From [Mycobacterium] crassicus (GTDB taxonomy: Bacteria > Actinomycetota > Actinomycetes > Mycobacteriales > Mycobacteriaceae): a stretch of DNA of 64,000 nt. Positions 54,264 to 64,000 of this stretch are shown one piece after another; within the stretch, counting starts at the first letter, position 1, and every line of letters begins with the position of its first letter. Under the pieces are notes generated by a model, which worked only from the letters and a program-made list of their open reading frames with translations, was not told where the DNA came from and searched no databases. The position numbers were made by a program, and so were the translations under genes. The DNA is taken from positions 2,644,617-2,708,616 of the forward strand of contig NZ_CP084029.1 of assembly GCF_020181615.1 (NCBI RefSeq). Direction: 5' to 3'.

Positions 54264-54334
54264 GCCGAGTCAGCGTACTGATCAGACCGTCGGCCGGGAG
54301 CCGGTAACGCCCGACGCGTGTCACGAGTCCGTGA

Positions 54335-54340
54335 TAGTAT
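54335..54340 (+). promoter_or_regulatory. -10 box of leaderless DUF222 promoter
   Basis: TAGTAT, ending 7 nt before the ATG at 54348. It overlaps the left end of the SOS box by one base, so LexA would occlude the transcription start site. Confidence 0.5.
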
Positions 54341-54355
54341 CGAACATATGTTCGA
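54340..54355. promoter_or_regulatory. LexA SOS box overlapping a start codon
   Basis: TCGAACATATGTTCGA matches the mycobacterial SOS consensus TCGAAC-N4-GTTCGA exactly. It sits in a longer perfect palindrome of 22 bp (54337-54358), and its centre contains the ATG (54348) of the DUF222/HNH gene. LexA-controlled 13E12-family genes are known in M. tuberculosis, which supports the function. Confidence 0.85.
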
Positions 54356-55949
54356 TACGAAGATTTGCGGCGGCGCGGCAGTCGCCGATCTGCCGCCGGA
54401 CCAGCTCGCCGACGTGATCACGGCGTCGCATCGGATGGAGTCAATGCTGATCGCGCGCCGATTGGCCGCGATCGCCGCGCTGCTGTCCCACCACGACGGG
54501 ATGAGTCCGTCGGCTATCGGGCAGCATCCGGACATGGTGGCCGGTTATGAGCGCACCTGCGCCGAGGTGTCAGCGTTGCTGAACCTCGCTCCCGCCGCGG
54601 CCGGTCGGCAGGTGCACTACGCCGAGGTCCTCGACATCCGCCTGCCGAAGGTCGCCGCCGTGTTCGGCGTCGGCGGAATCGACTGGCGCAGCGTGCAAAT
54701 CATCATCGATCGCACCGATCTCGTTGACGAGGACCTCATCGCCGGCCTCGACGATCAGCTGGCGGCACGGGTGACGAACTGGTCCAGTTGGTCCCGACAG
54801 CGCGTCATCAACGCCGTCGATGCCGCGGTCCTGGCAATCGACAACGATGCCGTCCGCCAACGCCGCAAAGAGGCCGATGGGGACCGCTACATCTGGGTGG
54901 GCCCGGACCAGGACGGCATGGCGAGAATCGACGGCAAGGTGGCTGCAGCCAACGCCACCGCATTCGATCGTCGCCTCACCGAACTGGCCCAGGCCGTCTG
55001 CCCCGGCGACCCGCGCAGCTTGGAGCAACGCCGAGTCGACGCGCTCGACGCGCTGACCGAGGGCCGCACGCTGGCGTGCGAGTGCGAGAGCAACGACTGC
55101 CCGGCCCGCAACGCCGATGCACCACCCCGGCCCTCCGGAACGCGAGTGATTCTCAACGTCATCGCCACCGCCGACACCATCGCCGGCACCAGTGATCGCC
55201 CCGGTTACCTCGACGGGTTCGGCGTCATCGACGCCGAACAGGTCCGACAACTGGCCGATGTCGCCACCCAGCGCCGACTGGATGCCACCGTCGCCGCCCA
55301 GGCCGCGCTGAGCTACCAGCCGTCAGCAGCACTGGCCCGAGCGGTCCGGTGCCGGGATCTGACGTGTCGGTTTCCCGGATGTCACCGCCGCGCCACCATC
55401 TGCGATCTGGATCACACCATTCCGTTCAATCATGCCAACCCCGCCGCCGGAGGGCAGACTGTCGCATCAAATATGAAGTGTCTGTGCCGTTTTCATCATC
55501 GTATGAAGACGTTCACCGGCTGGCTCGACAAACAATTGCCCGACGGCACGGTGATCTGGACCAGCCCCGGAGGGAAGACCTTCACGACCAAACCCGGTAG
55601 CGCGGAAGTGATCCCCGAACTTCCCGACGCGCTGAGTCGCATCGAACAACGCCCGCTCCCACAGCGCTGCGCCAATCGGGCGACGCAGCGGGCCGCGCAG
55701 GTCACCCGTATCCGCCGCGACAACCGCGTACGCCACGCCGCCAACCAGCTCCACGAAGCGCGTCAAAGCGAAATCAGAGAACGCAAACGGCGCAACCGAG
55801 CCCGCGATCTGCTCTTCATCCTCAGCGGCAAGCCCAGCACCAGCCCATACGGCACCTGGGTCAACGAACCGCACCAGCCCGAAGAACTCCCGCCGGACTG
55901 GCAACCACCGCCACCACCGCCACCCCTGCCCGACGATCCGCCGTTCTAA
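54348..55949 (+). CDS. SOS-controlled DUF222/HNH endonuclease-like protein (13E12 family)
   Basis: A second 13E12-family protein, 533 residues. DUF222 region about 1-320; HNH domain about 335-395 with CRDLTCRFPGCHRRATICDL (zinc cysteines), DLDHTIPFNHANPAAGG (catalytic His and Asn/Asp) and CRFHHRM. Beyond the HNH there is a basic helical stretch (LHEARQSEIRERKRRNRAR) and a Pro-rich tail (WQPPPPPPPLPDDPPF). ATG 54348 lies in the SOS box with TAGTAT 7 nt upstream, so transcription is probably leaderless and DNA-damage induced. Its stop overlaps that of the convergent decarboxylase by 3 nt. Divergent in sequence from the copy at 8.6 kb. Confidence 0.88.
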   Translation: MFDTKICGGAAVADLPPDQLADVITASHRMESMLIARRLAAIAALLSHHDGMSPSAIGQHPDMVAGYERTCAEVSALLNLAPAAAGRQVHYAEVLDIRLPKVAAVFGVGGIDWRSVQIIIDRTDLVDEDLIAGLDDQLAARVTNWSSWSRQRVINAVDAAVLAIDNDAVRQRRKEADGDRYIWVGPDQDGMARIDGKVAAANATAFDRRLTELAQAVCPGDPRSLEQRRVDALDALTEGRTLACECESNDCPARNADAPPRPSGTRVILNVIATADTIAGTSDRPGYLDGFGVIDAEQVRQLADVATQRRLDATVAAQAALSYQPSAALARAVRCRDLTCRFPGCHRRATICDLDHTIPFNHANPAAGGQTVASNMKCLCRFHHRMKTFTGWLDKQLPDGTVIWTSPGGKTFTTKPGSAEVIPELPDALSRIEQRPLPQRCANRATQRAAQVTRIRRDNRVRHAANQLHEARQSEIRERKRRNRARDLLFILSGKPSTSPYGTWVNEPHQPEELPPDWQPPPPPPPLPDDPPF

Positions 55950-58684
55950 AGCGCGCTGGCCCGAGCGGCCTCGAACCGGGCCAGGGCTTCCTGGGTGAAC
56001 ACCGCCAACCCCAGGTCGGGGTTGTAGCCGTGGATCTCCTTGACGTCGAGTTCGGCCAGGAAATACAGGATCTCCTTGGAGATCACCTGCCCGGGGACCA
56101 GCACCGGGAAGCCCGGCGGGTACGGCACGACGAAAGTAGTCGACACCAGGGACTTGCCGTCGGCCACCCGGCGGCCGGCATCGCCGAGCAGAACATGCTC
56201 GCGGTCGGACTCCTCGTAGCCTCCGTAGAACGCAGTTCGCATGTCGCCGAACGGGCTTGCGTTGTCAGGTCGAAACGCGTGGGCGAACTCACTGAAGTCC
56301 GGCAGCGGCGGCAGGTCCGCAGTGATCTCGACGATCCGGCGCTGCTGCAGCGCGCGGTCGTCGGTGCTGGCCGAGTTGAAGGTGCGGTCCAAGTCGGTGG
56401 AAACCCGGCGCAGGGCGTCGAGCAGGTAGTGCACGCTGGACCAGGTGACACCGATGGTGAAGATCAGCAGCACGGAATTTATCGATGTCTTGTTGATCTG
56501 AATTCCGAACTGGCCCATGAGAATCTTCTCGCGGAAGTCGTAGCCGTTCATCCCGGTCCTGCCGACGAACAGTGTGACCCGGGTGGGATCGAGCACGAAT
56601 TCGTCGGAGCGCCAGGCCTCGTTCCACTCCGCCAGCGCGCCCTGGCGAACCTGGCGGTAGGAGCTCACCGTCGACGCCCGGAATCGGTCGGGCACCAGGT
56701 CGTCCTCGTCGAGGATGCGGAACCACTTGCCGATCAACCGGTCTTTGCGGACCCGGTGGCGAAACACCAGCGCCATGTCGTAGACCCGCCGGACCATCTG
56801 GAACCCTTCGATGTCCACCTGCCGTCGGGCCAGGTCCAGCGAGGCCAGCAGCTGCTGATTCGGTGAGGTCGAGGTGTGGGTCAGAAACGCCTCGGTGAAC
56901 GACTCGCGGGCCAGCGCGTTGAAGTCCTGATCGCGCACGTGGATCATCGACGCCTGCCGCAGCGCGGACAGCGACTTGTGGGTGGAGTGGGTGGCATAGA
57001 CACGCACCCGCGTCCCGGGCGCAGGCAGCAGCCGGTGCTCGGCCCATTGCGAACGGTCGACACCGGCCATCGAGGCACGCCACGCCTGGTATTCCGCGGT
57101 GTATTCGGCCGAGCTGAGCATGGTCTCCAGCCGTTCGGCGGCAACCATCGCGGTGCGCTGCCGGGCCCACGGCACCGCGGTCGCGAACGCGTACCAGGCC
57201 TCGTCCCACAGGAAGCAGATGTCCGGCTTGATCGCCAGGATCTCCTCCATGACCCGTTGCGGGTTGTAGACGACACCGTCGAAGGTGCAGTTGGTCAGTA
57301 GCAGCATCCGAACCTTGTGCAGCTGCCCGGCGGCCTCCAGGTCCAGCAGCGCGCGTTTGATGGTCTGCAGCGACACCGCGCCGTAGATCGCGAACGGCGC
57401 CAGCGGATAGGCATCCAGGTACATCGGATATGCCCCGGCCAGCACCAGGCCGTAGTGGTGGGATTTGTGGCAGTTCCGGTCGATCAGCACGATGTCGCCC
57501 GGCCGGGTCAGCGCCTGCACGACGATCTTGTTGGCCGTGGAGGTCCCGTTGGTGACGAAGTAGGTGTGGTCGGCGTTCCAGGTCTGCGCGGCCTTGTTCA
57601 TCGCGACCCGGATGGTGCCGTGCGGATCGAGCAGCGAGTCCAGCCCGCCGGACGTCGACGAGGTCTCGGCCATGAAGATGTTGCGGCCGTAGAACTCCCC
57701 CATGTCCTGCAGTGAGCGGGAGTTGAAGATGCTGGCGCCGCGCGCCACCGGAAGCGCATGGAACTGGCCGACCGGCTCGGCGGCGTAGGCCCGCAGCGCA
57801 TCGAAATACGGTGTGGAATAACGCTTCCGAATACCGGCGAGCACGGTGCTGTGCAGGTCGGTGACGTCGTTGAGCCGGTAGAAGGTGCGGTCGTAGACGT
57901 CCGGTTCGGCCTCGGTGTCGGCCGCGATCGACTCGTCGGTGAGCAGGTACAGGTCGATGTGCGGACGCAGCAACCGCATCCACTCCCCGCATTCGATGGC
58001 ATCACGGCCGCAGTCGACGGTGCCGGCGTCGTCGTTGGCGCCCAGCAGGGTGTTCATCAGCGGCGCCCGGTCCCGCGACCGCAGCGGCAGGTCGTGCCGG
58101 ACGATCGCGGCCTGGATCTCGCCGTTGAGCGCCACCGCGGTGACGGCGTCCTCGACGCTGGAGACCACCAGCAGCTCGATCTGCACTCCGTCGTCGGCGT
58201 TACGCAGCGCCCGCAGGCTCTCCGCCAGGCTCTCGGGGGCCTCCGGCGGCGAGTCGTCGGCCAGCAGCACGGTGTAGAACTGCTGATGCCGGGCCTGGGC
58301 CACCAGTTCCTGGTCGGATAACGGCGAACCGAGGTCGAACAACGCCGCCCGGTCGCCGTAGTCCGACAACAGCCGCACCACCAGCGACACGTGTTCGGTG
58401 AGCGACACGGTGGCCCCCGCCTGGAGGTAGCCTCGGAAGCTGGCCAGATTCGCCGCGCCGGGGAACAGCCAGTACCGCTCGTAGGCGCCGATCCGGTCCA
58501 GCAGGCGCTTCACCCGCGCGACGTGGTGGGTGGTGTCCAGACCGGTCCGGTCGGCCGCGGCCAGTTGCCGGCAGGCATCGTCGAGCAGGTTCCAGGTGTC
58601 GACCCGCGAGTAGGACGGATTCGCCACCGCGGCCAGCGCCGACACCCGCAACCTGTGCGATTGCCCGCCTGCGCCAGAGGTCAT
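55946..58684 (-). CDS. PLP-dependent Orn/Lys/Arg-type decarboxylase (Rv2531c-like)
   Basis: A 912-residue fold-type I PLP enzyme of the prokaryotic ornithine/lysine/arginine decarboxylase family. N-terminal CheY-like wing region (about 90-240; FYTVLLADDSPPEAPESLAE, DLPLRSRDRAPLMNTLLGAN), then the PLP core with FMAETSSTSGGLDSLLDPHG, FVTNGTSTANKIVVQAL, DRNCHKSHHYG, FLWDEAWYAF and the PLP-Lys motif THSTHKSLSALRQAS; a C-terminal domain follows. Substrate unknown. I chose ATG 58684, which matches the homologue start (SALAAVANPSYSRVDTW follows); the long open frame upstream of it is antisense to the small gene at 58847. Confidence 0.93.
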   Translation of the reverse strand: MTSGAGGQSHRLRVSALAAVANPSYSRVDTWNLLDDACRQLAAADRTGLDTTHHVARVKRLLDRIGAYERYWLFPGAANLASFRGYLQAGATVSLTEHVSLVVRLLSDYGDRAALFDLGSPLSDQELVAQARHQQFYTVLLADDSPPEAPESLAESLRALRNADDGVQIELLVVSSVEDAVTAVALNGEIQAAIVRHDLPLRSRDRAPLMNTLLGANDDAGTVDCGRDAIECGEWMRLLRPHIDLYLLTDESIAADTEAEPDVYDRTFYRLNDVTDLHSTVLAGIRKRYSTPYFDALRAYAAEPVGQFHALPVARGASIFNSRSLQDMGEFYGRNIFMAETSSTSGGLDSLLDPHGTIRVAMNKAAQTWNADHTYFVTNGTSTANKIVVQALTRPGDIVLIDRNCHKSHHYGLVLAGAYPMYLDAYPLAPFAIYGAVSLQTIKRALLDLEAAGQLHKVRMLLLTNCTFDGVVYNPQRVMEEILAIKPDICFLWDEAWYAFATAVPWARQRTAMVAAERLETMLSSAEYTAEYQAWRASMAGVDRSQWAEHRLLPAPGTRVRVYATHSTHKSLSALRQASMIHVRDQDFNALARESFTEAFLTHTSTSPNQQLLASLDLARRQVDIEGFQMVRRVYDMALVFRHRVRKDRLIGKWFRILDEDDLVPDRFRASTVSSYRQVRQGALAEWNEAWRSDEFVLDPTRVTLFVGRTGMNGYDFREKILMGQFGIQINKTSINSVLLIFTIGVTWSSVHYLLDALRRVSTDLDRTFNSASTDDRALQQRRIVEITADLPPLPDFSEFAHAFRPDNASPFGDMRTAFYGGYEESDREHVLLGDAGRRVADGKSLVSTTFVVPYPPGFPVLVPGQVISKEILYFLAELDVKEIHGYNPDLGLAVFTQEALARFEAARASAL

Positions 58685-58846
58685 AGGGCCAGTGTGGCCC
58701 GCTTCGTGACGAATCGGGGCGCTTTCGCGGCGTCCGGCGAGCGGCCGGTCAGGATCCGGCACGAGGATGGCAAGAGGATTAGGCCCCTGCGCACGGGAGC
58801 CGAATGGCTGTGTCGGTGCCGCGCCGTTCTGGGTAGCCTCGGTCAG

Positions 58847-59122
58847 ATGGGTGACATCCCCAAGATCGACGCCTATACCGCTGTGCTGGCCGGCGCGCAG
58901 ACCGCCGATGAGGCCTGCCAGCGCCTGGCCGCCGCCGGTTGCACTGCGGCGATGGAGGGCGAATCGGTCGTCATCGACGACGGCGAGGCGAAGGCCAGCC
59001 CGTTCGAGGGTGTCAACAAGATCGGCGACACTTTCTACCTCTGGTGCCTGAACGACGCGGGTGGCGAGCTCATCCGGTGCGTCGCGCGTGGGCCGCAGGG
59101 CAGTTGCCCTCCGCGGCACTGA
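58847..59122 (+). CDS. Conserved small hypothetical protein
   Basis: A 91-residue protein, starting MGDIPKIDAYTAVLAGAQTA, with two Cys-containing stretches (DEACQRLAAAGCTAAMEGES, FYLWCLNDAGGELIRCVARG). No domain recognised. Codon use and composition look coding, and TAGCCT ends 7 nt before ATG 58847, a leaderless promoter divergent from the decarboxylase. No signal peptide or membrane helix. It may be a small regulatory or binding protein; no role can be assigned. Confidence 0.65.
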   Translation: MGDIPKIDAYTAVLAGAQTADEACQRLAAAGCTAAMEGESVVIDDGEAKASPFEGVNKIGDTFYLWCLNDAGGELIRCVARGPQGSCPPRH

Positions 59123-59519
59123 GCCATAGGCCCTTTCTCGGTATCGGATCCGGCAGACGCCGTCTCCGACGCCCTGCCCCACTTCACCACCACATCGGCG
59201 ACGGCCGGCTTCGCCGCGTCCGCGCACCGCACCGCGTGTAGCAATTCAATTTGTCTCAGAGTGAGACATCGAAGCACTGAATCCGCGGATTAAATCTGTC
59301 GTGCATTAACCCTTCCGGCACCCCCGCCGGTACGCACGCAGGAGGCGCAATTTGAACGGGTAAGGCCCAACGAAGGCTATTGCAGCGCTGCTCTTCTCGG
59401 TTGAAACGACGACCTCACGGACCGTCACGGCCGAGGGTGCTATCAGCGCAATAACCACCCCGTCAGACCTCCCGCTTGCCGGGTTATCACTTCCAACCTC
59501 TACCGAAGGATTTCAACAA
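59123..59519 (+). other. Upstream region of the GMC oxidoreductase cluster
   Basis: About 400 bp without a gene. It holds the inverted repeat at 59252-59268, an AGGAGG at 59340-59345 with a TTG 6 nt downstream that opens only a three-codon frame (TTG AAC GGG TAA), and a stem GCAAT/ATTGC (59347-59351 with 59379-59383). It could be a regulated promoter plus a long leader of about 150-250 nt before the PEBP gene; no named riboswitch is recognised. Confidence 0.45.
59252..59268. promoter_or_regulatory. Perfect inverted repeat, operator candidate
   Basis: TGTCTCA-GAG-TGAGACA, perfect 7-bp arms with a 3-nt centre, in an AT-richer patch about 250 bp upstream of the PEBP gene and about 130 bp downstream of the 91-aa gene. 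Typical geometry for a dimeric regulator or an enhancer-binding protein; no regulator gene is visible beside it in this window. Confidence 0.55.
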
Positions 59520-60056
59520 ATGGCCGCACGCCCGCCCTTGCCCTTTGACTTCTTGCCCAAAGTGCCGACATTCACCGTTACCAGTACGGAGATCACCGAC
59601 GGACAACCGATGCCCCAACCTCAGGCATCAGGAAAGTTCGGCGCCGGCGGCGAGGACTGCTCGCCCCACCTCTCCTGGTCCGGATTCCCAGCGGAGACCA
59701 AGAGTTTTGCCGTCACCTGCTACGACCCGGACGCTCCCACCCAAAGCGGGTTCTGGCACTGGGCCCTCGCGGACATCCCCGCCGATGTGACCGAATTGCC
59801 CAGCGGAATCGGACTTCTGGGCAAGCGCGACTTCACCAACGGTGCGATCTCTCTGGCAAACGACGCCAGCCTGCCCGGGTATCTGGGTGCTGCTCCCCCC
59901 GCCGGCCATGGTCCGCACCGCTACATCTTCACCGTGCACGCCGTCGACGTCGAGACCCTGGGACTTCCTGCCGAGGCAACTCCGGCATTCCTCGGCTTCA
60001 ACCTGTTCAGCCACACCCTGGCGCGCGCAACCATCATCCCCACGTTCGAGCAGTAG
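59520..60056 (+). CDS. PEBP-family protein (YbhB/YbcL-like)
   Basis: A 178-residue phosphatidylethanolamine-binding-protein-fold protein of the bacterial YbhB/YbcL type. Signature blocks: [58 protein letters not shown] and [13 protein letters not shown], with the conserved His and Asp/Glu residues of the anion pocket. No signal peptide. Ligands of bacterial members are largely unknown. ATG 59520 has an AAGGA site about 9 nt upstream. It is the first gene of the oxidoreductase cluster; the next gene starts 30 bp after its stop. Confidence 0.87.
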
Positions 60057-60086
60057 CCGCCTGACGACGAAACAAAGGTAGTAACA

Positions 60087-60551
60087 ATGACCAATCAGAA
60101 ATTGGCGGATCAGCGAGAGCTGTTGTTCCAGGCGCTGGTTCCGGCTGAGGCGGCGAACCTCGTGGCGTTGATGGAGAACATCGTCCCCCATCGGGATCCT
60201 GAACTCCGCGACATCGTTTTCTATACGGCCCTGTGCTTCGACGCCGGCTTGGCCACCGCCACGGCGTTGCGCGGCGAGGTACGGGATCTGCTCAAAGAAC
60301 TCGACCAGCAGGCCGTCGCGGCTGGAGCCACCTCCTTCGCCACGGCCGCACCGGACGTCCAGAAATCATTGCTGATCGCAATCGAAGGCCGACCGATTTT
60401 CCAACAGCTGGTCTACGCCACGGTGTCGGATTTCTACAACCGCCACATCGTCTGGCAGGCCATCGGTTATCCGGGCCTGGCCCAGCGGGACGGCAAGGGC
60501 TACATCAATCAGGGATTCGACGTCCTCAACTGGGACGAGCCGACGGCCTGA
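60087..60551 (+). CDS. Gluconate 2-dehydrogenase subunit 3-like protein
   Basis: A 154-residue protein resembling the small (subunit 3, PF13618-type) partner of gluconate 2-dehydrogenase and related GMC dehydrogenases. It is helical; the C-terminal FQQLVYATVSDFYNRHIVW and AIGYPGLAQRDGKGYINQ match the family hallmark around YYs...gYPG. Family members carry a Tat signal in many Proteobacteria, but none is seen here, so the complex is probably cytosolic. The GMC subunit gene follows after 48 bp, which strongly supports the pairing. Confidence 0.8.
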   Translation: MTNQKLADQRELLFQALVPAEAANLVALMENIVPHRDPELRDIVFYTALCFDAGLATATALRGEVRDLLKELDQQAVAAGATSFATAAPDVQKSLLIAIEGRPIFQQLVYATVSDFYNRHIVWQAIGYPGLAQRDGKGYINQGFDVLNWDEPTA

Positions 60552-60599
60552 TCGCAACACGCGCGAACACATTGCTTGAGTATCGAAAGAAGGTGCCAC

Positions 60600-62198
60600 A
60601 TGGCTAGAACTGCACTCAACGTACCCCTCGACGAGGCGGTAGAGGTCGTTGTGATCGGGACCGGAGCCGGGGGCGGCAACGTCATCCGTGAACTCTGCCT
60701 CGCCGGCGTACGGGTGGTGGCCCTGGAGGCCGGTCCACGACTGGACGCCGACAACGACTTCGAGGAAGACGAAGTCGGGATGTACCACAAGCTGAGTTGG
60801 CTCGATCCGGTCGGCGTCACCGGAGCCGACATCAGCGGAAGCGCCGCCTGGATATGTAAAACGGTCGGCGGCAGCACGACGCACTGGGCAGGCGCCGCAC
60901 TGCGGTGGCAGCCGCACGAGTTCAAGGCCAAGACCACCTACGGGGACGTCGAAGGCGCCGATCTCGTTGACTGGCCGATCGACTACGACACCCTCGCCCC
61001 TTACTACGACAAGGCCGAGAAGCTCCTCGGGGTGGCAGGCGCTGTCACCAAGCTGCCCACGGGAAACACGAATTTCCTTGCCCTCAAGCGCGGAGCCGAC
61101 GTCCTGGGAATCGACGCCCACGCCGGAAACATCGCGATCACCACCGAGGACTACCAGGGCCGCGGTATCTGCACGCAGCGCGGCTATTGCTTCCAAGGCT
61201 GCCGCAATCAGGCCAAGTGGAGCAGCCTGTTCGAAGCGATCCCGACAGCCGAGGACACGGGGTGGCTCGACCTGCGCCCGAATTGCCAGGCACTGAGCAT
61301 CACCACTGATGAAGATGGACGTGCCAGCGGCGTGGTTTACGCCGATCCGGACGGCAAAATCGTCGAGCAGAAGGCTCAGTACGTCGTGGTCGCCGGCAAC
61401 AGCATCCAGACACCCCGACTGCTGCTGAACTCGGCCACACCGCGCTTCCCCGACGGTCTGGCGAACGGCAGTGGCGCCGTGGGTCGCTATTACATGCGGC
61501 ACCTGACGGCGTCCAGCTACGCCAAGTTCGAGAAGCCGGTGCACGCCTACAAGGGCATCACCATGATGGGCATGGTCGATGAATGGCACGACAGCCGACC
61601 CGAGGACCGCGGGTTCGTCGGAGGATTCCACCTCGAGACGATCTTCCTCGGCCCGGCATTCACCGCCGTCTTCGTCGCCCCCGGCCCGCTGACATCGACA
61701 AGTGGCAGCCGTGCCATCTGGGGCGAGGAACTGGCCGACATGATGGAGTCATACACCCATCTGGCAGGCCTGTGGATCGTCGGCGAAGACATGCCGCAGG
61801 CAGACAACCGAGTCACGGTCGACCCGGACCACAAGGACCAGTTCGGCATGCCGATTCCGGTGGTCAACTACGCCGACCACGCCAACGACACGGCTATGCG
61901 TGAATTCGCCTGGGGTAAGTCTCGGGACCTGTACACCGCCGGTGGGGCAACCACCGTGTGGGACACACCCCCGTACCCGGCGACGCACAACCTGGGCACC
62001 TGCCGGATGGGGTCGGACCCCGCCACCTCGGTGGTCAACGAATTCGGACAGGCCCACGAGGTCCCCAACCTGTTCATCGCCGACGGCAGCGTGTTCCCGA
62101 CGAGTGGGTCGGAGAACCCCACGCTCACCATCAGCGCCCTGGCGATCCGCCAGGCGGAATACATCACCTCGGTGATGGCTGAGGAAATGTCGGGGTAG
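60600..62198 (+). CDS. GMC oxidoreductase, large subunit of a sugar/alcohol dehydrogenase
   Basis: A 532-residue FAD enzyme of the glucose-methanol-choline family, closest to the gluconate 2-dehydrogenase large-subunit type. FAD motif VVVIGTGAGGGNVI at the N-terminus; second FAD segment KTVGGSTTHWAGAAL; a Cys-rich stretch ICTQRGYCFQGCRNQAKWS; NSIQTPRLLLNSA; C-terminal HNLGTCRMG and PTSGSENPTLTISALAIR (catalytic-domain His/Asn region). The electron acceptor is unknown. ATG 60600 has AAGAAGG about 7 nt upstream. The adjacent subunit-3-like gene is its likely partner, and the next gene starts 2 bp after its stop. Confidence 0.88.
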   Translation: MARTALNVPLDEAVEVVVIGTGAGGGNVIRELCLAGVRVVALEAGPRLDADNDFEEDEVGMYHKLSWLDPVGVTGADISGSAAWICKTVGGSTTHWAGAALRWQPHEFKAKTTYGDVEGADLVDWPIDYDTLAPYYDKAEKLLGVAGAVTKLPTGNTNFLALKRGADVLGIDAHAGNIAITTEDYQGRGICTQRGYCFQGCRNQAKWSSLFEAIPTAEDTGWLDLRPNCQALSITTDEDGRASGVVYADPDGKIVEQKAQYVVVAGNSIQTPRLLLNSATPRFPDGLANGSGAVGRYYMRHLTASSYAKFEKPVHAYKGITMMGMVDEWHDSRPEDRGFVGGFHLETIFLGPAFTAVFVAPGPLTSTSGSRAIWGEELADMMESYTHLAGLWIVGEDMPQADNRVTVDPDHKDQFGMPIPVVNYADHANDTAMREFAWGKSRDLYTAGGATTVWDTPPYPATHNLGTCRMGSDPATSVVNEFGQAHEVPNLFIADGSVFPTSGSENPTLTISALAIRQAEYITSVMAEEMSG

Positions 62199-62200
62199 CC

Positions 62201-62608
62201 ATGGGGTGCACAGACCGGTGTGGGAGGCCGGCAGCGCGGACTGAGCTGCCGGTACGGGTGTTTCACAACTTCAACGAGGAACCCATCCCGTTCCATGCCG
62301 ACGACCAGTTGCGCAAGGTCGCGGAGTTCGGCATCAGCATGGATGCGGACGCGACACCCGACACCATCCAGACGTTGTTGGCGTTCGTGGCCAAACAACT
62401 CAATCGTGATGCGCCCACCGCGCTTTGGGGAAAGGATCGCCGGTACCGGCGTGACCACAACCTGGACGTCGGAGACGTCGTCGCCATCGGCGACCAGGCC
62501 TGGGCACATGAAGGCACGGGCTGGCGGCGCGTGACCCTGCTGAACGACCAGATCTGGGTGGAAGTAGGGCGCACCAGGAGCGGAGAGCCGTTGCTGTCCC
62601 GTGGGTGA
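62201..62608 (+). CDS. Hypothetical protein in the GMC cluster
   Basis: A 135-residue protein that I do not recognise. It begins MGCTDRCGRPAARTELPVRV, with a short Cys-containing start, then a mixed alpha/beta-like sequence (VFHNFNEEPIPFHADDQLRK, TIQTLLAFVAKQLNR) and a C-terminal strand-rich part (GDVVAIGDQAWAHEGTGWRR). No signal peptide or membrane helix. ATG 62201 starts 2 bp after the GMC gene stop, so it is certainly co-transcribed; the AceE-like gene starts 12 bp after its stop. The placement suggests a cluster-specific accessory. Confidence 0.7.
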   Translation: MGCTDRCGRPAARTELPVRVFHNFNEEPIPFHADDQLRKVAEFGISMDADATPDTIQTLLAFVAKQLNRDAPTALWGKDRRYRRDHNLDVGDVVAIGDQAWAHEGTGWRRVTLLNDQIWVEVGRTRSGEPLLSRG

Positions 62609-62620
62609 GGACACCACCCG

Positions 62621-64000
62621 ATGACCGACCCGAAGTCACAGCCCCTGACCAGTCACGTATTGGAGACGACCGTCGAGCCCATCGATCCGTTGACCCAAGT
62701 CGAACACAGGGTGCTGTGGCTTTCGACCGCGATGATCCACCATGCCAATCGGATTCGCCCTAATCCGTCCGGGATCAAGGTCGGCGGGCACCAGGCGTCG
62801 TGCGCATCGATCGTGACGATCATGACGTCGCTGTGGTTCGATCTGTTGGGCCCGGATGATCGGGTCTCGGTGAAACCGCATGCCGCTCCGGTGCTCCACG
62901 CGATCAACTGCCTGCTCGGCAAGCTCGATCCGAAGTACCTGACGACATTGCGTGAATTCGGCGGCCTGCAGTCCTACCCCAGCCGGCACAAGGATCCGGA
63001 TCCGGCCGACTACGCCACCGGTTCGGTGGGCATCGGTGCCACCGCACCGATCTGGGGCGCCCTCGCCCGGCGCTACGTCAACACGGTCAGCGGTCAGACC
63101 GGCTCAGGCCGACAGTATTCCCTGGTCGGAGACGCTGAGTTGGACGAGGGCGCGGTGTGGGAGGCGATCATGGATCCCGCGACCGCAGAACTCGGCGAAG
63201 TCGTGTGGATCATCGACCTGAATCGGCAGTCACTGGACCGGGTAGTACCCAGTATCGCAGCGGGGCGACTGGAGGCGATGTTCGCCGCCGCAGGCTGGCA
63301 GGTCATCATGGTGACTTTTGGCAGGCTGTTGCGGAAACTGTTCGCGCAACCCGGCGGCCCGGCACTGCGCACCCGACTGCTCGAAATGCCCAATCCCGAA
63401 TACCAGCGGCTACTGCGCTGCAGCCCGGCGACATTGCGCGCCCGGCTACCCGGCGTCGGGGCCCAAGCCGCTGAGATCGCGCGACTGATCGCCGATCTCG
63501 ACGATGCCACCCTCGTCCGTGCGATCAGCAATCTCGGGGGCCATGACCTTGCGGCGCTCCGCGCCGCGTACGCCCAGATCGACGACACGCGACCGACGGT
63601 CATCATCGCCTACACCGTGAAGGGCTACGGACTGCCGTCCCAGGGCCACCCGCAGAACCACTCCTCGCTGCTGACGGCCGAACAATTTCACCAGCTGGCT
63701 GCCGATCTCGACGCGAACCCCGACCAGCCCTGGGAACTTTTCGAACCGGACTCCCCCGCGGGACTCCTGTGCGCCGCCACCGCGGCACGGTTGCACCGCA
63801 ACGAACCTGACCATCTCGCGGCGCCGAAGGTGCCCACCGATATCGGCCGAACGCCGAAAGGCGTCTCGACGACCCAGGCCGCCCTGGGACGAGCCCTCCT
63901 CGATCTGACCCGGGAGGCGCCGCAGGTGGCCCGACGGGTCGTCACCGTCAGCCCGGATGTCAGTTCCTCGACGAATCTGGCCGGCTGGCTGAACAAGGTA
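62621..64000 (+). CDS. AceE-like TPP-dependent 2-oxoacid dehydrogenase E1 (5' part)
   Basis: The first 460 residues of a thiamine-diphosphate enzyme related to homodimeric pyruvate dehydrogenase E1 (AceE) and transketolases; the frame runs off the window. Signatures: GGHQASCASIVTIM (TPP-pyrophosphate region), GDAELDEGAVWEAI (the GDGxxDE TPP/Mg motif with A for G), VVWIIDLNRQSLDRV, and IIAYTVKGYGLPSQGHPQNH. AceE normally works with E2 lipoyl partners; none is visible here. A 2-oxoacid dehydrogenase or transketolase-like carboligase role in the same pathway as the GMC enzyme is inference. The GAGG before ATG 62621 (11 nt) is a weak ribosome site. Confidence 0.8.
   Translation, partial: MTDPKSQPLTSHVLETTVEPIDPLTQVEHRVLWLSTAMIHHANRIRPNPSGIKVGGHQASCASIVTIMTSLWFDLLGPDDRVSVKPHAAPVLHAINCLLGKLDPKYLTTLREFGGLQSYPSRHKDPDPADYATGSVGIGATAPIWGALARRYVNTVSGQTGSGRQYSLVGDAELDEGAVWEAIMDPATAELGEVVWIIDLNRQSLDRVVPSIAAGRLEAMFAAAGWQVIMVTFGRLLRKLFAQPGGPALRTRLLEMPNPEYQRLLRCSPATLRARLPGVGAQAAEIARLIADLDDATLVRAISNLGGHDLAALRAAYAQIDDTRPTVIIAYTVKGYGLPSQGHPQNHSSLLTAEQFHQLAADLDANPDQPWELFEPDSPAGLLCAATAARLHRNEPDHLAAPKVPTDIGRTPKGVSTTQAALGRALLDLTREAPQVARRVVTVSPDVSSSTNLAGWLNKV

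Follow-up and report, generated by a model that had tools for sequence, protein, structure and literature searches.

The right-hand end of the analysed window, a 64,000-nucleotide stretch of the genome of [Mycobacterium] crassicus (contig NZ_CP084029.1; a 4.87-Mb single contig), carries five tightly packed plus-strand genes which probably serve the metabolism of acetol derived from propane and acetone. Open reading frame (ORF) calling gave intergenic gaps of 30, 48, 2 and 12 bp, exactly as reported in a preliminary description of the window, and Pfam and NCBIfam scans upheld the gene identities proposed there. The first gene (59520–60056, +) encodes a YbhB/YbcL-like PEBP protein of 178 aa (PF01161, 139 bits; TIGR00481, 125.7 bits against a cut-off of 57.75), and the second (60087–60551, +) a 154-aa small subunit of the gluconate 2-dehydrogenase subunit 3 (GDH3) family (PF13618, Gluconate_2-dh3; 25.7 bits against a cut-off of 23.4). 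These are followed by the gene for a GMC flavoprotein (60600–62198, +; 532 aa from the ATG, with an alternative TTG start possible at 60576), which has GMC_oxred_N and GMC_oxred_C domains as well as a C-x5-C-x3-C motif, and is proposed here to be the large subunit of an acetol dehydrogenase. The fourth gene (62201–62608, +) codes for a 135-aa orphan protein that matches no Pfam or NCBIfam family. The fifth gene, which encodes a thiamine diphosphate (ThDP)-dependent E1 of the AceE/transketolase superfamily, starts at 62621 (+) and is open at the window end (64000), the part inside the window showing Transketolase_N and a sub-threshold aceE match. The complete E1 of 780 aa (L003:3638–5980, in the coordinates of a locus record reaching past the window edge) contains Transketolase_N, PDH_E1_M and Transketolase_C_1 domains according to Pfam.

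The order PEBP-GDH3-GMC-orphan-E1-mim is common to five genomes (the present one, L034, L035, L036 and L156/G439), and the five genes are therefore not a chance run of ORFs; the three named relatives with this locus belong to Mycolicibacter. Twelve proteins related to the orphan, the window's own included, were found at 60–99% identity, two of them with organism names ([Mycobacterium] vasticus and Mycolicibacter algericus), and the protein is apparently lineage-restricted. A promoter of its own for E1 had been named in the preliminary description as a point that would speak against a common unit. No sigma-70-like site was detected in 59200–62800 (0.6 on average in shuffled sequences), although this is a weak test in mycobacteria; the five genes are likely to be co-transcribed.

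Past the window edge, 503 bp downstream of E1, starts a MimABCD-type propane/acetone monooxygenase cluster. Its genes encode, in this order, a MimA-like hydroxylase, a reductase, a second hydroxylase subunit, an MmoB-type coupling protein and a GroEL-like chaperonin (Pfam: PF02332 twice, a Fer2/FAD/NAD reductase, PF02406 and PF00118), and genes for a zinc alcohol dehydrogenase and a GAF/Fis-type MimR-like regulator ("GAF" by reading) are located farther downstream on the opposite strand. Thus, what had been taken for an unfamiliar, free-standing grouping is in fact one operon of a larger and largely known system. An extension to the right had been suggested as a way to find an E2 or lipoyl partner of E1; no such partner was seen among the scanned or read ORFs of the 19.4-kb locus, so a local E2 was dropped, and the extension led to the mim cluster. 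When an E2 found beside other E1 genes was used as a query, the own genome contained no close copy, the best match being 51% identical and located in a 598-aa frame. Based on homology, the adjacent monooxygenase is predicted to oxidise propane and acetone; the available text of PMC7176365 describes a mimABCD layout as hydroxylating acetone in Mycolicibacterium. As in other mycobacterial and Rhodococcus MimABCD clusters, the four monooxygenase genes are accompanied by a GroEL-like chaperonin, an alcohol dehydrogenase, a Fis-type regulator and a palindrome before mimA. The difference lies in the operon of PEBP, GDH3, GMC, orphan and E1 that is added here under the same palindrome, and MimB–D are only 49–54% identical to the versions of G123 and Rhodococcus JS3073. 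The MimR-like regulator (L003:16411–18174, −; lid and helix-turn-helix matches) has no GAFTGA motif, the element that contacts sigma-54 and that is present in the regulator of Methylocella tundrae. It has the appearance of a sigma-54 activator turned sigma-54-independent.

A perfect 17-bp palindrome, TGTCTCA-GAG-TGAGACA (TGTCTCAGAGTGAGACA; 59252..59268, strandless), ends 251 bp before the first start codon of the operon and is proposed as an operator; its first base is the very position at which the preliminary description let the cluster begin. A scan of the whole genome with GTCTCANNNTRAGAC returned five rows that correspond to three places, two of them read on both strands. All three places of the palindrome, GTCTCA-N3-T(G/A)AGAC, are at this locus: before the PEBP gene, before mimA, and between the end of the regulator gene and the start of the alcohol dehydrogenase gene. 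The reversed pattern, used as a control, gave no match in the same genome. In the window alone, a scan with one mismatch yielded two matches (one palindrome, both strands), a count reached by 11 of 100 shuffles; a single site therefore proves nothing, and the weight rests on the genome-wide count. Upstream of PEBP the element reads (T/C)GTCTCAGAGTGAGAC(A/G) in all five operon-bearing genomes, upstream of mimA it reads (C/T)GTCTCA-N3-TAAGAC in the same five, and the third place is also occupied in L034, L035 and L036. With 0–1 mismatch to GTCTCANNNTGAGAC, it lies about 100 bp before mimA in all 13 orthologue loci, own included. In three Rhodococcoides loci the palindrome lies where a gene for a MimR-like regulator (33–37%) begins; this gene is divergent to E1 and to an alcohol dehydrogenase gene (74% to that of the present locus). 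The shared palindrome is likely to be the binding site of the MimR-like regulator. A literature search with the palindrome halves gave nothing on the subject by title among the matches listed, which is not to say that the palindrome is unreported. Being limited to this locus in the genome, the palindrome could be used for finding the system in other genomes.

The GMC protein was found at E ≤ 1e-90 in 3 of 401 genomes of the family, and in 11 of 396 genomes of a phylum sample, the own genome being included in both counts; a 400-genome survey of the phylum of G900 gave none at E ≤ 1e-140 and is uninformative. Plasmid relatives (E ≤ 1e-60) occur in 124 records, 40 of which were listed, all of them below 60% identity, and the best proteobacterial GMCs, several adjoining mim genes, are about 50–52% identical. 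MimA was detected (E ≤ 1e-100) in 21 plasmid records, and a comparison of coordinates among the matches listed places GMC no more than 11 kb away in at least 11 of these, with GMC and mimA on either side of the record start in Indioceanicola. All 11 records belong to another phylum, and six of them were inspected directly. A VOC gene is found beside GMC in 11 of the 13 inspected proteobacterial loci (L117–L122, L174–L177, L187, L195 and L196), Gemmobacter and Phaeobacter being the two without it. The Sphingobium locus, with no mim in the stretch, contains genes for a hydroxyacylglutathione hydrolase (gloB) and a D-lactate dehydrogenase, and that of Skermanella contains glycolate/D-lactate-type oxidase genes and a pyruvate carboxylase. 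These proteobacterial neighbours read as a putative route from acetol through methylglyoxal and lactate to pyruvate.

According to the accessible part of PMC7364539, Methylocella silvestris with a deletion of the GMC gene Msil_1641 accumulates acetol and does not grow on 2-propanol or acetone. With the M. tundrae copy as a stand-in (GMC 51% identical, small subunit 27%), the Msil_1641 type resembles the present pair in having subunit 3 directly upstream and a soluble di-iron monooxygenase (mim) nearby; M. tundrae also has an E1 of the same family (41%), located after GMC and separated from it by an Lrp gene. Here, on the other hand, neither a VOC nor a cytochrome c gene adjoins, the small subunit is without a twin-arginine (RR) motif, and the host is an actinobacterium. 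The RR motif is absent from all five Mycolicibacter-type copies of the small subunit; among the proteobacterial ones, motif search detected it in 9 of 13, and the other four are annotated as twin-arginine. The nearest solved GMC structures are the large subunits of fructose and glucose dehydrogenase, and all three Cys residues of the motif align with those of fructose dehydrogenase, where they are ligands of a [3Fe-4S] cluster. The pair therefore shares the three Cys of the large subunit with FAD glucose/fructose dehydrogenase complexes, and differs from them by a small subunit without the twin-arginine signal. No cytochrome c partner was found among the translated ORFs of L003, the rest of the genome not having been searched. 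If the iron-sulphur role is right, the electrons of GMC would not pass directly to NAD, contrary to what is assumed in the accessible part of PMC7364539.

For E1, the best 80 of 96 loci found were analysed, with flanks of up to 10 kb, some of them ended by contig ends, and with neighbours identified by tblastn (E ≤ 1e-8); residue counts and trees are based on the 69 loci that passed a length filter, the other 11 being left out. E1 forms a subfamily distinct from housekeeping AceE (70–78% identity within the genus sample, 27–32% to AceE-like matches). The nearest solved structure by sequence is that of E. coli AceE (1l8a, E 1e-45), the homodimeric pyruvate dehydrogenase E1, with which it shares the superfamily and the catalytic residues. 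The AceE active-site residues H106, S109, H142, Y177, K392, E571, Y599 and H640, which contact the substrate, are kept in 69 of 69 rows and in the window E1, and the catalytic H106, H142, K392, E571, Y599 and H640 are also kept in the E1 of M. tundrae. Compared with AceE, Q140 is replaced by K and E522 by V. AceE H106 has its counterpart in H57 of E1, which is therefore shorter by about 50 N-terminal residues, in the region that binds E2 in AceE. None of the 69 rows has a His in the column of AceE His407, a His being present two columns away; this loop His of AceE is involved in the acetylation of E2 (available text of PMC2663715). The cut-off of TIGR00759 (aceE), 859.9, is far from being reached by either the 460-aa window piece (136 bits) or the full-length M. 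tundrae homologue (174 bits).

In a genus sample of 148 genomes, E1 (≥~70%) occurs in 26, mimA (≥75%) in 13 and both in 11; E1 is thus present in 11 of 13 mim-positive and in 15 of 135 mim-negative genomes (Fisher p 3.8e-8, or 1.8e-7 without the own genome, phylogeny being ignored). G123 has E1 next to mim, separated from it by the regulator gene, and an Lrp-like gene is divergent to E1. In Rhodococcoides, E1 comes after amidohydrolase, iron-sulphur protein and alcohol dehydrogenase genes; in L050, the genes preceding the alcohol dehydrogenase are amidohydrolase-like and Fe-S-assembly-like, and a 107-aa protein is encoded between the alcohol dehydrogenase and E1 (names by reading). A different architecture is found in Gemmobacter and Phaeobacter, where GDH3-GMC ends an operon-like run of genes for E1-alpha, E1-beta, a lipoyl protein, an E2 catalytic domain and a lipoate ligase. 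In Gemmobacter fulvus (L184:9272–15246) the lipoyl protein is a stand-alone one of 77 aa and the E2 catalytic domain has 230 aa; the run is also present in Phaeobacter inhibens (L187), and mim was seen in the stretch of Gemmobacter only. Roseibium and Paracoccus seriniphilus have the first five genes of the Gemmobacter run as well (the ligase by position), there in the absence of GMC. The E1-lipoyl-E2-ligase set, accompanied by a Fis-type regulator next to GMC, resembles acetoin dehydrogenase-like systems; the E1 described here differs from these in being a single chain that lacks a local E2. Pyruvate dehydrogenase models give the highest scores for the Gemmobacter E1, and these stay below the cut-off. 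Of the ten E2 genes that directly follow E1 in the 80 loci, the one scanned (L107:12352–13419) encodes lipoyl and catalytic domains, with no match to a peripheral-subunit-binding domain. Eight of the 11 GMC-mim records were examined for E1, the three Azospirillum records being outside this set, and three of the eight carry one (two of M. tundrae, one of which by coordinates only, and Gemmobacter).

The conserved operon is real, and it is best explained as the acetol-side half of the mim regulon. We regard it as reasonably probable that the five genes form one transcription unit of a propane/2-propanol/acetone regulon, in which GMC acts on acetol and E1 on a downstream 2-oxoacid, most likely pyruvate. 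MimABCD, aided by its dedicated chaperonin, would act as the hydroxylase of propane and acetone; 2-propanol would be turned into acetone by the zinc alcohol dehydrogenase. The small-subunit/GMC pair would then oxidise acetol to methylglyoxal in the cytoplasm, its electrons reaching an acceptor by way of FAD and, probably, an iron-sulphur centre. An enzyme whose gene lies elsewhere would turn methylglyoxal into pyruvate, which E1 may then decarboxylate at the pyruvate exit, handing the acetyl group to a lipoyl E2 or to a different acceptor. All three transcription units would be switched on by the MimR-like regulator through the palindrome they share. The pyruvate-side role of E1 is favoured because a pyruvate carboxylase (Skermanella) or a phosphoenolpyruvate synthase (verrucomicrobia) is found in its place. 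As outlined in the available text of PMC12235487, the verrucomicrobial pmoCAB3 C3 cluster (gmcAB, gloA, lactate dehydrogenase, ppsA) likewise combines an acetone monooxygenase, a two-gene GMC and a pyruvate-side enzyme; it differs in the particulate type of its monooxygenase and in the phosphoenolpyruvate synthase standing where E1 stands here, and the comparison is one of gene content. The oxidation of a hydroxy compound followed by E1 acting on a 2-oxoacid, as put forward in the preliminary description, comes close to this scheme. Its sugar-acid substrate is no longer the first choice: the linkage to mim and the shared palindrome make acetol from propane or acetone the likelier one.

Several observations weigh against this interpretation. 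The full five-gene set is present in only 3 of the 80 E1 loci, the other four genes being missing in 77; the scattering of homologues, which the preliminary description had named as a finding that would refute its reading, therefore holds in part for E1. In 9 of the 11 genomes with both mim and E1, the two are not adjoining (four far apart on the same contig, five on different contigs of fragmented assemblies), and E1 is missing from five of the eight GMC-mim records examined (by tblastn in B510, Ponticoccus and Bradyrhizobium; by annotation alone in Skermanella and on one side of Indioceanicola). In other genomes, 25 E1 loci were scanned together with flanks of 1.5 kb, and none has the palindrome at up to one mismatch. 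Of the 80 E1 loci, 38 contain a gene of the Lrp/AsnC type, so named from the reading of one representative, and in 10 an E2 gene lies directly downstream of E1. A Leisingera copy of E1 abuts a methionine gamma-lyase gene, so the E1 family may prefer other 2-oxoacids. On the GMC side, mimA is found on 21 plasmid records and GMC on 124, most of the latter without mim on the same record, and six inspected mimA plasmid loci (L178–L183) have no GMC within 12 kb. No enzyme leading from methylglyoxal to pyruvate was seen in the own locus, and five other actinobacterial copies (L157–L161) have neither the Cys motif in GMC nor the RR motif in the small subunit, so the Cys motif is not shared by all of the wider family. 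Among the matches listed, two Caballeronia records, Shinella HZN7 and Rhodococcus ruber have mimA and no GMC on the same record.

The role of E1 can be read in other ways. It might split a C3 carbonyl directly, converting acetol to a two-carbon ThDP adduct and formaldehyde, or methylglyoxal to the same adduct and formate, much as the E1 of acetoin dehydrogenase splits acetoin. Such a cleavage would fit the occurrence of E1 in mim-linked settings without GMC (none at E ≤ 1e-90 in G123, none in the fetched stretch of Rhodococcoides), the E1-lipoyl-E2-ligase set that accompanies this GMC in Gemmobacter and Phaeobacter, and the features in which the active site departs from AceE (no His in the His407 column, Q140K, E522V and the shortened N-terminus). 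A conversion of acetol to acetate and formaldehyde by Mycobacterium Py1 is also in print (Hartmans and de Bont 1986, cited in PMC4033308), but that activity was described as a monooxygenase. Since AceE H106, S109, H142, K392, Y599, E571 and H640 are all kept, which fits a 2-oxoacid, and relatives of E1 beside methionine gamma-lyase or E2 point the same way, we consider direct cleavage unlikely. A more specific proposal, to which we give slightly less credence, is that E1 is a dedicated C3-ketone ThDP enzyme cleaving acetol or methylglyoxal into a two-carbon unit and formaldehyde or formate, and that such enzymes have entered mim/GMC loci repeatedly and from two E1 architectures; if so, it would be a gene-level candidate for the split of acetol into C2 and C1 reported for one mycobacterium. 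Many database records name E1 a transketolase, and in all 69 rows a loop His matches the position of TktA H261, as would suit a carboligase forming C–C bonds, for example in formaldehyde fixation. However, of the phosphate-binding residues of TktA, R520 is replaced by T (68 of 69 rows), H461 by P and H100 by P, only R358 being kept (68 of 69), and AceE is the closest solved protein by a wide margin; a carboligase is thus very improbable.

The link of the genes to the mim system may also be questioned. The operon could serve another alcohol or a sugar acid and merely neighbour mim, in keeping with fructose and glucose dehydrogenases as the nearest solved relatives of GMC and with the many GMC plasmid records devoid of mim. 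The confinement of the shared palindrome to this locus, the GMC-mim linkage in records of another phylum and the Msil_1641 genetics all argue against this, and we hold it to be quite improbable. Least probable of all is a recent insertion of E1 with a separate role and no part in C3 metabolism. E1 is indeed widespread and mostly found elsewhere, and in a quick tree the five Mycolicibacter copies, one clade with a support of 100, nest among non-mim copies, and are part of a group (94–95) that also includes L039, L040, L042 and G123; nevertheless, five genomes share the same order at 87–94% E1 identity, and E1 is separately linked in M. tundrae, G123 and Rhodococcoides.

The fate of acetol after acetone hydroxylation in mycobacteria and their relatives is still open: besides the older report of acetate and formaldehyde, a proteome study of an actinobacterium proposes its oxidation to methylglyoxal via Adh1 (available text of PMC7176365). 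The locus offers a candidate acetol dehydrogenase together with an unexpected E1 in the same putative regulon. Among the papers searched, none joins propane, GMC, acetone, monooxygenase and transketolase. The part comprising mimABCD, chaperonin, alcohol dehydrogenase and regulator is largely known, and the E1 step, the PEBP and the orphan protein are the interesting parts.

Between E1 and mimA, and divergent from mimA, there is an 83-aa ORF (L003:6021–6269, −). The other four genomes of Mycolicibacter type have it at 73–93% identity, and none of the remaining fetched loci matches it at E ≤ 1e-3. A short ORF that appears transposase-like by reading (L003:14144–14569, −) is located between the chaperonin and alcohol dehydrogenase genes. 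Upstream of the operon, the window contains a gene at 54318–55949 for a 13E12-repeat-like protein, which ends beside a large decarboxylase-like gene, named by reading (55946–59227, −).

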